Assembly (NCBI GenBank): GCA_025934025.1
Contig: JAICYU010000016.1
Span: forward strand, 1 to 32,912
DNA from: Terriglobales bacterium
GTDB taxonomy: Bacteria; Acidobacteriota; Terriglobia; Terriglobales; Acidobacteriaceae
Reading direction: 5' to 3'
Length of the DNA stretch: 32,912 bases
In this document: in pieces, positions 23,052 to 27,121 of the stretch
Position numbering within the stretch: position 1 is the stretch's first letter
How the letters are laid out: each line of letters opens with the position of its first letter
Program-made: the position numbers and the translations under genes
Notes under the pieces: generated by a model
Seen by the model: only the letters and a program-made list of their open reading frames with translations
Told to the model about the DNA's origin: nothing
The model's database searches: none

Positions 23052-25019
23052 TCACTTCAGAGGCAGCAGCGCAGAACCCTCTTCAATGCCCGCCACTCCT
23101 GCGGAATAGCGGCTGTGTCGGCCGGAAAGATGCAGCGGCACAATGACGGGATCGTGTATCGTTTGCGCCTCGGGGTGCTGCTTCAGAATTTTAGCGATTT
23201 CAGGCGCGTTCGCCCGAAGCGCACTTAAATGTCCGGAATCGAAGGCGTCCGCCTGTCGGCGATAAACGGCCAATACTCCCAGAGTGCGCCCGCGATGCTG
23301 CAGAGGAACCGCCAATGCGCATCGCAGCGCCAATCCTGCCAACCCAGGCTCGACGGTCGGGTTGCCGTTTAGGATTGGATTCTCTGTCTCGGCTACCCAA
23401 CCAATCAAACCTTCTCCTCTCTTCACCTTCGATGATGAGAGCTGGCGCATGCTGTCTCCCAGCGCGAAGCGGGAGGTGAGCATCTCTCCGCCTGAGTAGA
23501 TTGCTATCGCGTCAAACGGCACAAGAAAGCGCAACCGGAGCGCAACCGCTGACAAGATTTCCTGCAGTGTGAGCCGCTCTTCGGGGAATACCGGATCCAT
23601 AATTCCGGGAAGGCGGTTGCTGCTCAAATTCGCACCAGCGGGAGCTGTGGATGTGCCTGCGGCAAAGCCGGCATCCGGAGCGGCGCCCCGCTCGACTTTC
23701 ACGTCAAAGGACAACTTTGCCCGCTTCTCCGGCTCCTGAAGGCGCGCCAGCCGTTCTAATTCCTCGTACCGTGCCTGCAATGCTGAAACTACGCGGGGGT
23801 CGAACGCTTTTCCTGAATCTTTCACCACCATCGCCATGGCTTCGTTGAGCGGCAGCGCCCGGCGGTATTGGCGATCGGAGGCGAGCGCGTCCAGGCAATC
23901 CACTGCAGAGAGAATCCGGGCTCCTATGGGAATTCCTTCGCCGGAGATTCCGGCGGGATAACCGCTACCGTCCCATTTTTCATGATGGCAGCGCACAATG
24001 GGCGCAACCGGGTACGGGAAACGGATCTGCTCCAGAATTTCAGCTCCCACAATGGGATGGACCTTCATCTTCTCGAATTCTTCGGGAGTCAGCTTTCCGG
24101 GCTTGGAGATGATGTGTTCAGGCACGGCCAGCTTCCCGATGTCGTGCAGCACGGAAGCGGCCTGCAGCGCCTGCATTTCTGAAGGCGAAAGCCCCAGGTC
24201 TTTTCCCAATTCCATAGCATAGACTCGCACCCGCTGCAGGTGATCACCAGTCGTATGGTCTTTTGCTTCGATCGCGAGCGCCAGGGTTTCGATGGTCCGC
24301 ATATTGAGCGATGCGAGGTCCTCGAGATGCCGTTTCTCATCCTCCCAGCGGCCCAGGTGCATGCGGTAAGAACGGTAAATCACATAAACGGCAGGTAAGA
24401 CGAGGACCGAAAATTCCCATCCGGCAAGCCGATTTACGAATTGGATAACTCCGGCAAGAGCAGCGCCGACCAGATAGTAAGGGAACGTCCAGTAATATCC
24501 GGTGGTCCACTTTGCAACGATGGGCGTGCTCTCCGCCAATGCAATCACAGTAGCTACCGGAATGGTATTCAAGAGGAAATACACGATCGCGGCAATCAGA
24601 ATGGGAATTGGCGGGCGGCCGCGGAACACGTCGGTTACAAGAACCGCATAGGTCCAATAAGCACCGGTGATGGCGACGGTGACTTGGGCCAGATTAAACG
24701 CGAAGCGGACAACACTGAAACTGGTGCCGGCACGCCAGAAACACTGAACCAGCGTAGCGGCGAGAGCGAGGACGAGCGTCTCAGAGATGCTCATGTTTGC
24801 CACGCCCACCAGAAAGAAAACAAAATTGACTGAGACGGTGCCTTCCACACCGGGCATGACAATCTTCATTGCCGATGCGATCGCGGTAAGCAAAAGGTAA
24901 GTAGGGAACAGAAGGCTATGGGTGCTGTGCCACGGGACCATCCCCCAGACGAGGCAGAGAGCTCCGCACCCCCAAATGAGGAAGACAAAAGGTCTGGCTC
25001 GAACTGGAATTCCTGCCAT
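23052..25019 (-). CDS. Membrane HD-GYP and GAF domain protein (c-di-GMP phosphodiesterase)
   Basis: A 655-residue signalling protein. Residues 1-225 hold about eight hydrophobic helices with no recognised sensor family; this resembles a membrane sensor domain. An HD-GYP domain follows (about 240-430): the HD pair in LHDIGKLAVPEH, metal-ligand His in HPIVGAEIL, and HHEKWDGSGYP, the GYP motif. A GAF domain ends the protein (about 475-645: ILSAVALRLRFLVPFDAIAI, GEGLIGWVAE, LAVPLQHRGRTLGVLAVYRR). HD-GYP enzymes hydrolyse cyclic di-GMP to pGpG or GMP. The protein is divergent from the secreted protease gene, with a 275-base shared upstream region. The signal sensed is unknown. Confidence 0.93.
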   Translation of the reverse strand: MAGIPVRARPFVFLIWGCGALCLVWGMVPWHSTHSLLFPTYLLLTAIASAMKIVMPGVEGTVSVNFVFFLVGVANMSISETLVLALAATLVQCFWRAGTSFSVVRFAFNLAQVTVAITGAYWTYAVLVTDVFRGRPPIPILIAAIVYFLLNTIPVATVIALAESTPIVAKWTTGYYWTFPYYLVGAALAGVIQFVNRLAGWEFSVLVLPAVYVIYRSYRMHLGRWEDEKRHLEDLASLNMRTIETLALAIEAKDHTTGDHLQRVRVYAMELGKDLGLSPSEMQALQAASVLHDIGKLAVPEHIISKPGKLTPEEFEKMKVHPIVGAEILEQIRFPYPVAPIVRCHHEKWDGSGYPAGISGEGIPIGARILSAVDCLDALASDRQYRRALPLNEAMAMVVKDSGKAFDPRVVSALQARYEELERLARLQEPEKRAKLSFDVKVERGAAPDAGFAAGTSTAPAGANLSSNRLPGIMDPVFPEERLTLQEILSAVALRLRFLVPFDAIAIYSGGEMLTSRFALGDSMRQLSSSKVKRGEGLIGWVAETENPILNGNPTVEPGLAGLALRCALAVPLQHRGRTLGVLAVYRRQADAFDSGHLSALRANAPEIAKILKQHPEAQTIHDPVIVPLHLSGRHSRYSAGVAGIEEGSALLPLK

Positions 25020-25170: not shown

Positions 25171-25294
25171 AAGCCGTCCCCGCAACCGCTTTGGAGGAAC
25201 TTTAGTAATTACAGTCAGTTACAGCGGTCCGAACATGGCTACCCGCTTGCAATAAACGAGCATGCGGTCAATTTTCCTCTTCCAGGACATTTTT

Positions 25295-27121
25295 ATGCGC
25301 AAGCAAACCCTTCTTCTGATGCTCGTGCTAATGGCTTTGCCATTGTCGCTATTTGCCGATGATTCCAAGATTTCGCCCGACCTGCTGAATGACACCTCTG
25401 CCGGACAGCAGCAGGTGGTGGTGCAGTACGCGCCGGGCACGCAGTTGACCTGCAGCGGCTTGCTTGGCCTGCTCGGATGTGTAGTGGGAGACGTTCTGAA
25501 GCTGGGCGGGGCCGTTCTGGGCTCGCTTCCGATTGTGAACGGGCTGGTTGCGTCGCTCGACCACAACGGGATTGTGGCGCTCTCAAACCAATCCAATGTG
25601 GTTTATATCAGCAAAGACCGGCCGCTCGCGCCATTCCTGGACAATGCAGCTCCCGGCGTGAATGCGCAAGCCGCTTGGAAATCAAATTACACGGGCAGCG
25701 GGATTGGCGTGGCCCTCATTGATAGCGGGGTCAACAACCATCCCGATTTGAACATGGGATTGATACCGTTCTCGCGCGTGGTTTACAACCAGAGTTTTAT
25801 TCCCGGAACCTCCAGCGCGGCGGACCAGTACGGCCACGGTACGCACATTGCCGGGCTCATCGCGGGCGATGGCCTCAGTTCCACCGGACCGCTGTTTTCT
25901 GAAACCTTTAAAGGCATCGCTCCCAACGCGAACATCGTGAACTTGCGCGTGCTGGACGCCAACGGCAGCGCGACGGATAGCGAGGTAATCGCCGCCCTTG
26001 CCAAGGCCATCAGCCTGAAATCACAGTACAACATCCGGGTGATCAATCTTTCACTCGGGCGCGGCGTGTTCGAAAGCTACACGCTCGACCCCTTGTGCCA
26101 GGCGGTTGAGAAGGCCTGGAAGAGCGGAATCGTTGTTGTGGTGGCCGCAGGCAATAATGGCCGCTTTCAGCCGACCAGTGGTTACGCTACCGTGACGTCG
26201 CCCGGGAACGATCCGTACGTCCTCACGGTAGGCGCAATGAAGGAGATGGGAACAACGGACCGCGGAGATGATCTGATCGCAAGCTACAGCTCCAAAGGGC
26301 CGACTTTGCTTGATCACATCGTCAAGCCGGACCTCGTTGCGCCGGGCAACCTGGTGGTCTCCACCGAAACCAGCAACACCACGCTATACAACACTGAAAC
26401 CAGCAATTTGGTTCCGTACAGTGACTATGTCTGGGGTGGATCGTCAGCGCCCTCCAGGACTTATTTCAGCCTGAGCGGCACCAGTATGGCCGCTGGGGTG
26501 GTGAGCGGCGCAGTGGCTGACCTGCTTCAGGCACATCCCACGCTCACGCCTGATCAGGTAAAAGCGCGGTTGATGAAGACCGCCTCCAAAGCATTTCCGC
26601 AGAGCAGCAGCGTGTACGATCCTGCCAGCGGCGCGACTTATACCGCTGAGTACGACATTTTCACCGTCGGCGCCGGGTATCTTGATCTGGCTGCAGCGTT
26701 GGCCAGTACTGACTTGAGCACCCGCTCGGCAATGTCGCCCACCGCGGCCTACAACTCCAACACTGGGAACGTTTACCTCAGCAGCGATCCATCAGCCGTA
26801 TGGGGTACCTCGCAGGCGTGGTCGGGACCGGCGGTCTGGGGCAATTCACAGTTCCTGGGCGGCAGCTCAGTTATGTGGGGAACCTCTGTGATGTGGGGCA
26901 CGTCCACACCCGGTGGCTCTTCCGTGATGTGGGGAACGTCAGGATTGTGGGGAGATTCGGTGATGTGGGGGACGAACACCTCTTCCGGATTTGCCACCAT
27001 CTGGAGCAACAGCGTGATGTGGGGTACCAGCGTCATGTGGGGTACCAGCGGACAAGACGCTACCAGCGTGATGTGGGGCACCAGTGTAATGTGGGGTACC
27101 AGCGTAGACAAAGGCGAATGA
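25295..27121 (+). CDS. Secreted subtilase (S8) with C-terminal VMWGTS repeats
   Basis: A 608-residue exported serine protease. The ATG at 25295 is preferred over 25262 because AGGA lies eight bases upstream and the signal peptide (MRKQTLLLMLVLMALPLSLF) then begins properly. An I9-like or unassigned propeptide (about 25-110) precedes the catalytic domain, whose triad is Asp143 (VALIDSG), His181 (GHGTHIAGLIAG) and Ser397 (SGTSMAAGVVSG); the oxyanion Asn is in VAAGNNG. The domain ends near residue 480. The last hundred residues are a repeat tail with eight VMWGT units and variants (AVWGTS, AVWGNS, GLWGDS, TIWSNS). The tail has no sorting motif I know. It is probably a surface or self-binding module. 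The next gene is an intracellular-type glucoamylase. Confidence 0.92.
   Translation: MRKQTLLLMLVLMALPLSLFADDSKISPDLLNDTSAGQQQVVVQYAPGTQLTCSGLLGLLGCVVGDVLKLGGAVLGSLPIVNGLVASLDHNGIVALSNQSNVVYISKDRPLAPFLDNAAPGVNAQAAWKSNYTGSGIGVALIDSGVNNHPDLNMGLIPFSRVVYNQSFIPGTSSAADQYGHGTHIAGLIAGDGLSSTGPLFSETFKGIAPNANIVNLRVLDANGSATDSEVIAALAKAISLKSQYNIRVINLSLGRGVFESYTLDPLCQAVEKAWKSGIVVVVAAGNNGRFQPTSGYATVTSPGNDPYVLTVGAMKEMGTTDRGDDLIASYSSKGPTLLDHIVKPDLVAPGNLVVSTETSNTTLYNTETSNLVPYSDYVWGGSSAPSRTYFSLSGTSMAAGVVSGAVADLLQAHPTLTPDQVKARLMKTASKAFPQSSSVYDPASGATYTAEYDIFTVGAGYLDLAAALASTDLSTRSAMSPTAAYNSNTGNVYLSSDPSAVWGTSQAWSGPAVWGNSQFLGGSSVMWGTSVMWGTSTPGGSSVMWGTSGLWGDSVMWGTNTSSGFATIWSNSVMWGTSVMWGTSGQDATSVMWGTSVMWGTSVDKGE
26797..27112 (+). 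repeat. VMWGTS-coding repeat tail of the protease gene
   Basis: Near-identical units of about 18-21 bases such as GTGATGTGGGGTACCAGC recur at the 3' end of the gene. They encode SVMWGTS or VMWGTS. Eight VMWGT copies plus four degenerate ones are present; the last four are the most alike, with repeated GGTACC. DNA identity between adjacent units suggests recent expansion. Confidence 0.85.

Follow-up and report, generated by a model that had tools for sequence, protein, structure and literature searches.

The analysed window (32,912 nucleotides from a Terriglobales bacterium of the Acidobacteriaceae) contains an S8 subtilase gene on the forward strand (25295..27121), which encodes 608 residues plus the stop codon. 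The annotated open reading frame is longer (25262–27121, forward strand), its start at 25262 lying upstream of the ATG at 25295. We consider this ATG (M12 in the numbering of the annotated frame, which is used throughout) to be probably the true start because a clean signal peptide opens there, an AGGA box is located approximately 9 nt 5′ of it, and a sigma-54-like site lies 59 nt upstream. The signal peptide (MRKQTLLLMLVLMALPLSLFA, 25295..25357), which was recognized in the sequence, forms a helix in the AF2 model and ends at a putative cleavage site, suggests that the subtilase is secreted. It is followed by (i) a propeptide-like α/β domain (25358..25636; residues ~33–125, with approximate boundaries), in which AF2 predicted strands and helices at residues 50–118 with pLDDT values of mostly 68–95; (ii) a subtilisin catalytic domain (25637..26671; residues ~126–470), delimited by Pfam, by sequence matches in the PDB and by AF2/Foldseek; and (iii) a linker (26672..26791), defined by the alignment consensus, which connects the catalytic domain to the tail and holds an AMSPTAxYNxxTGNVYL-like region conserved among relatives. 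The match to PF00082 (E = 3.8e-53) argues that the protein body is an S8 subtilase, and the catalytic triad Asp154/His192/Ser408 and the oxyanion residue Asn298 are at least 90% conserved or invariant in the alignment of relatives. The best Foldseek match of the subtilase model was pro-Tk-SP (3afg), and only the protease part of the model was matched. Elsewhere in the window, nonamer repeats (GTCCANNNN) are present at 100–139, 298–347, 519–568, 1062–1152, and 2196–2218, and GTCCANNNNGTCCA has 17 matches in the window against 0.05 expected. These repeats cluster around and inside a reverse-strand gene (355–1113), which scored near the threshold (32.3 bits; threshold 33.8) for PF05635, the 23S rRNA intervening-sequence protein family.

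The C-terminal end of the subtilase is a tail of Trp-containing hexads (26792..27118, forward strand; residues 511–619). The tail begins with SAVWGT, SQAWSG, PAVWGN, and SQFLGGS, after which the canonical region runs as 2 SVMWGT units, STPGGS, SVMWGT, SGLWGD, SVMWGT, NTSSGF, ATIWSN, 2 SVMWGT units, SGQDAT, 2 further SVMWGT units, and the terminal SVDKGE. The 8 canonical SVMWGT units, of 18 nt each, lie in the forward-strand region 26867..27100 and start at positions 26867, 26885, 26921, 26957, 27011, 27029, 27065, and 27083. The initial annotation had described a secreted subtilase ending in a regular Trp-repeat tail of at least 8 VMWGT units, and both parts of this description are borne out by the PF00082 match, the signal peptide, the hexad register, and the 8 exact VMWGT copies within 26870–27099. 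SAVWGT, SQAWSG, PAVWGN, SGLWGD, and ATIWSN are degenerate hexads, and the Ser/Gly/Asn-rich spacer hexads STPGGS, NTSSGF, and SGQDAT preserve the six-residue register. All 10 Trp residues from the first SVMWGT onward, spacers included, are spaced by multiples of six (6 or 12), and one step of 13 is found upstream of the first SVMWGT. The fixed Trp step proposed in the initial annotation thus holds for multiples of six from the first SVMWGT, and its alternative of seven does not. Tandem Repeats Finder called the array at periods of 18 and 36. The degenerate 14-mer GTNATGTGGGGNAC, which covers VMWGT, has 8 matches in the 3.66-Mb genome, all within the subtilase gene, and its reversed control has none in the same genome; the eight-unit array is far above chance. 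Contrary to the earlier description of the units as nearly identical DNA, their Val (GTT/GTG/GTC/GTA), Gly (GGA/GGC/GGG/GGT), Thr (ACC/ACG), and Ser (TCN/AGY) codons differ freely between units; Met and Trp have a single codon each. No Pfam or NCBIfam model covered the tail in profile searches of the subtilase. A literature search, which reached few subscription journals and gives weak evidence of absence, returned no description of VMWGT in a relevant sense or of the unit strings, in keeping with the earlier remark that such tails are rarely described.

AF2 was run on the full subtilase with a 48-sequence alignment. Most of the catalytic domain had pLDDT values above 90, and the tail had values of ~23–31 and no strands. 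When the 23-unit tail of a relative (L052) was modeled alone, the mean pLDDT was 37, and the model contained only low-confidence two-residue strands at a period of six. The tail is therefore predicted to be disordered, with the reservation that low pLDDT is no proof for repeats with shallow alignments and that an unusual fold is possible. The structure prediction that had been proposed as a check of a β-solenoid or self-adhesive sheet did not favor either, and a β-solenoid or adhesive domain was set aside as a candidate because confident regular β coils were predicted in neither model (pLDDT 23–31 and 37).

Exact VMWGT arrays are confined to the window gene and predicted to be disordered, the combination that the initial annotation had held to speak against its proposal. 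Variant arrays do occur elsewhere, namely in a paralog of the same genome and in relatives. The paralog and ~70 relatives, essentially all of them Acidobacteriota, carry S-[VAIL]-[VMIL]-W-G-[TSNDA] tails with ~5–23 copies. The suspected variation in copy number was thus confirmed, both across relatives (5–23 Trp units) and between the window subtilase and an 80%-identical ortholog (8 versus 5 canonical units). The consensus across 407 units is S-[AVIL]-[VLIM]-W-G-[TSA]. A multiple of six separates consecutive Trp residues in 303 of 356 steps, the others being mostly 11, 13, 14, or 15, and the tails often end in GE[NKQ]. In 84,980 species genomes, the tandem pattern WGT-x-xx-WGT-x-xx-WGT was found in 48 stretches, all from Acidobacteriota (Acidobacteriaceae, Bryobacterales, Sulfotelmatobacter, and others) except for 3 from actinobacteria. 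Wherever the gene body could be read, the acidobacterial matches belong to S8 subtilases, and the 3 actinobacterial matches were discarded as short or unrelated reading frames with no subtilase. With a two-unit pattern, 5 genomes were recovered from 396 sampled across the phylum, and 5 from 41 relatives. By protein search, the subtilase subfamily was detected in 14 of the 41 relatives, where every member with a readable C-terminus bears the Trp-hexad tail. Viral contigs gave 8 pattern matches and no tail gene, and the matches that were read are spurious short reading frames; tblastn of plasmids with the subtilase matched the catalytic domain only, and none of the matches covered 80% of the query. 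Several individual tails deserve mention: extreme arrays of 23 SAVWGT units and 14 SAMWGT units are each carried by a single subtilase (L052:142-2181 and L066:3738-5906, respectively), the tail of a related subtilase (L042:4058-6277) repeats a longer unit (DIFQLDSTVWGT) instead of the hexad, and the ortholog in G014 (L122:7189-8964; G014:C23) seems frameshifted or mis-assembled within the tail.

Comparison of unit pairs from 72 proteins revealed that identity is higher within an array than between proteins at position 2 (87% versus 30%), position 3 (77% versus 39%), and position 6 (73% versus 46%). The synonymous codons of shared residues were compared with the identity expected from each gene's own codon usage. 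Gly codons had an identity of 0.395 between units against 0.403 expected, and the other positions had 0.34–0.44 against 0.26–0.37, that is, 0.07–0.09 above expectation. Because the residues are uniform and the synonymous codons near random, the uniformity is not due to recent DNA copying. Its likely cause is selection of the protein for a single motif in each array; conversion at an earlier time with later constraint, or conversion within each block, is possible. Orthologs with 65–81% identity carry different canonical units, which are SVMWGT in the window, SIMWGA in G006, and SAMWGS (with one SALWGS) in G022. In all 3 arrays, Ser is encoded by TCN codons before a TIW/TVW hexad and by AGY codons after it, the canonical unit type is the same on both sides of this boundary, and the change in the canonical units leaves the sequences of the odd hexads untouched. 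Synonymous sites are heavily diverged between the orthologs, with identical codons at 31–41% of conserved fourfold-degenerate residues. The signal for a common motif among within-genome paralogs was weak and mixed (p = 0.02). We describe the tail as a repeat domain without an existing model, in which residues are locked within each array, synonymous sites are free, and the motif changes wholesale between lineages.

The divergent neighbor of the subtilase (23052..25019, reverse strand) encodes a MASE9-like membrane domain (residues ~1–240), an HD-GYP phosphodiesterase domain, and a GAF domain. Pfam matched HD_5 and GAF in this protein and reported nothing for the membrane domain at E ≤ 0.001; the domain was assigned as MASE9-like by its homology (30–72%) to the corresponding domains of relatives, which scored 30.7 bits (the fused domain of L128), 29.8 bits (L104), and 24.7 bits (L039) against MASE9 (PF20972; gathering score 24.3 bits). 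Synteny of the MASE9-HD-GYP-GAF gene with the subtilase orthologs is kept in G006, G014, G019, and G022. The GH15 gene downstream, which was considered as a partner, is not syntenic. At other loci, a stand-alone MASE9 protein of ~250 residues is encoded in the same operon as the tail subtilase, often overlapping the subtilase stop codon, and a gene of this kind (L125:3536-4282) adjoins the paralog in the window's own genome. A MASE9-like gene lies within 3 kb of 39 of 74 distinct tail subtilases, or 39 of 54 when the 20 with flanks too short to judge linkage are left out. The partner is a stand-alone MASE9 at 24 of these 39, where it is immediately downstream on the same strand and often overlaps the subtilase gene. 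For 15 tail subtilases with enough flank, MASE9 was not detected within 3 kb; several of them adjoin Opp, HD-GYP, or sigma54-PilZ genes. A search of 41 genomes found 16 stand-alone MASE9 ORFs, each of them next to a tail subtilase, and the 2 families co-occur (13 genomes with both, 1 and 2 with a single one, 25 with neither; Fisher p = 8e-8). Some MASE9-HD-GYP genes have no tail subtilase next to them, and no free-standing repeat ORFs were found beside these genes. To our knowledge, MASE9 has no known ligand, and no paper naming MASE9 was found by the literature search, with the same narrow reach into subscription journals and the same weak weight for absence.

Across 22 loci, the distance between units was correlated with the distance between stand-alone MASE9 proteins (rank partial r = 0.34, permutation p = 0.0025) in a test that controls for both protease halves and does not fully remove shared ancestry. 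With MASE9 controlled for, the unit distance also tracks that of the C-terminal protease half (0.25, p = 0.007; 22 loci), and no signal was obtained among 13 fused partners. With ancestry only partly corrected, the covariation of unit type with stand-alone MASE9 is suggestive only. As a separate observation, a single S-A-[AM]-W-G-[KRG] motif, whose core matches that of the tail unit, is present at the N-termini of some tail subtilases (L039, L040, L044, L047, L057, L059, L064, L067, L071, L131, L146, and L151, for example), in the positively charged region ahead of the hydrophobic core of the signal peptide. This N-terminal WG motif occurs at 13 of 24 loci with a stand-alone MASE9, at 3 of 27 loci for which no partner was found, and at none of 11 fused loci.

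The sigma-54 (−24/−12)-like site TGGCTACCCGCTTGCA (25236..25251, forward strand), located 59 nt before the ATG, agrees with the sigma-54 consensus at 9 of 11 bases and may act as the promoter of the subtilase gene; rpoN is present in the genome. Of 64 tail-subtilase starts, 23 have a site of this quality (at least 9 of 11 bases) in the 130 nt upstream, compared with 0.6 expected from shuffles and 1.4 from random windows of the same loci. In G001, G003, G004, and G006, tail subtilases are part of a cluster with the order sigma54-PilZ, MASE9-HD-GYP-GAF-GGDEF, OppB, OppC, SBP_bac_5, OppD, tail subtilase, and MASE9; G014 has the cluster without one or another gene. As exceptions, OppC was not called in G014, and the stand-alone MASE9 is broken in G003. 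In the window genome, this cluster is probably present as well, divided between contigs C282 and C103. Of 41 genomes, 14 have a member of the PilZ activator family, and a tail subtilase is present in 12 of these. Sigma54-PilZ and/or MASE9-HD-GYP-GAF-GGDEF genes together with Opp genes are also found without an adjacent tail subtilase (L142:4648-12930, L141:1008-7610, and L137), and the signalling/Opp part may therefore have a role of its own.

The genomic context points away from adhesion, towards read-out by a partner tied to c-di-GMP. Our best explanation, which we put forward tentatively, is that the tail is a disordered hexad array, with many copies of one short linear motif, read by a MASE9 partner in a c-di-GMP-regulated protease module, in which it would serve as a released multi-copy peptide signal or as a multivalent dock. 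Subtilase genes would be switched on at their sigma-54 promoters by a PilZ-containing sigma-54 activator, and the secreted subtilase would display the hexads or cut them free. The hexads would be read by a MASE9 partner, that is, by the divergent MASE9-HD-GYP-GAF protein here and by the stand-alone MASE9 of the overlapping operon at other loci; the MASE9 sensor would use HD-GYP/GGDEF domains to adjust c-di-GMP, and the peptides would be imported by Opp at loci that have it. A more specific form of this proposal, which we regard as unlikely, is that the subtilase carries and itself processes a hexapeptide pheromone of Acidobacteriota, whose cognate MASE9 receptor makes or degrades c-di-GMP, with feedback through PilZ and sigma-54. 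The circuit would be self-contained, and its unit, SVMWGT here, would differ from lineage to lineage. The subtilase has features of a multi-copy precursor, namely a secreted protein (as judged from the signal peptide) with repeated, near-identical short cores, and these cores are uniform within a precursor and diverged between precursors.

The linkage and unit data would also suit a multivalent tether, in which the hexads, by docking to a receptor (MASE9 or another one), would hold the subtilase at the membrane or on the cell surface. The module would then be a nutrient system controlled by c-di-GMP and sigma-54, composed of a tethered exoprotease and Opp uptake, and would release no peptide. 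The Opp genes within the cluster and a variable copy number, which fits avidity, favor this tether, but it alone leaves the fusion of the reader to HD-GYP/GGDEF unexplained, as well as the wholesale motif change between orthologs unless the dock co-evolves, and we consider it somewhat improbable. In a β-solenoid or cross-β adhesive tail, identical residues would be stacked as ladders. Such a fold would account for the exact six-residue register, the alternating hydrophobic residues, the like residues within arrays, and the faint period-six strands of the 23-unit model; it is nevertheless quite unlikely given the pLDDT values of both models, the spacers of relatives that break the register (Trp steps of 11–15 residues), and the MASE9 linkage, which it does not explain.

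Two further readings find less room in the data. A C-terminal signal for secretion, sorting, or processing, with MASE9 as the dedicated membrane component according to the PEP-CTERM/exosortase logic, would fit the C-terminal position, the frequent terminal GE[NKQ], and the linked membrane protein. Sorting signals are present in a single copy, usually with a transmembrane segment. The tail, by contrast, has 5–23 copies, no transmembrane segment, and an acidic GE end instead of a basic one, by which a PEP-CTERM-like signal was rejected as a candidate, and its partner is often fused to signalling domains; a sorting role is therefore very doubtful. Neutral or concerted expansion, in which slippage and gene conversion keep the units alike with no specific role, is already disfavored and in our judgment extremely improbable. 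The different copy numbers of orthologs and the long tandem arrays of L052 and L066 would be expected from it, but not the near-random synonymous codons of uniform residues, the Ser-codon boundary kept across orthologs with residues changed on both sides, or the tail on every subfamily member with a readable C-terminus in the relatives. If the motif is a ligand, as the best explanation allows, it would supply the orphan c-di-GMP sensor MASE9 with a ligand that can be tested directly, and the Acidobacteriota, a phylum dominant in soil, with a candidate peptide signal. If it serves for docking only, the tail is still an unmodeled repeat domain with an unusual signature.

Parts of this arrangement have precedents. 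Extracellular proteases, among them subtilases, mature the tandem Phr propeptides of Bacillota (RRNPPA systems, including the Phr of phi3T and phi105), and Opp brings them back into the cell (PMC11343458). The likeness lies in the multiple copies of a short peptide in one secreted precursor and in a functional setting that includes secreted subtilases together with an oligopeptide permease. In the Phr systems, however, the precursor and the protease are encoded by different genes and the receptor resides in the cytoplasm (PMC11343458), whereas the array described here is fused to the protease, and its candidate reader is a c-di-GMP membrane protein of the MASE9 type. Fungal KEX2-processed repeat proteins and α-factor precursors likewise provide a precedent for parts of the system (PMC6339444). 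Their cores are separated by KEX2 sites (PMC6339444), whereas the hexads in the window abut without dibasic sites and their carrier is itself a subtilase. Fusion of the array to the protease is described neither for Phr (PMC11343458) nor for the KEX2-processed proteins (PMC6339444). With S8 subtilases such as Tk-SP (3afg), the window protein has the propeptide and the catalytic fold in common, but neither Pfam nor NCBIfam matches its Trp-hexad tail to any counterpart. Finally, MASE9 (PF20972) is known as a sensor domain fused to HD-GYP/GGDEF, and several partner domains of relatives exceed its gathering score; in the tail-subtilase loci, MASE9 also stands alone, with no output domain, in the operon of a protease.
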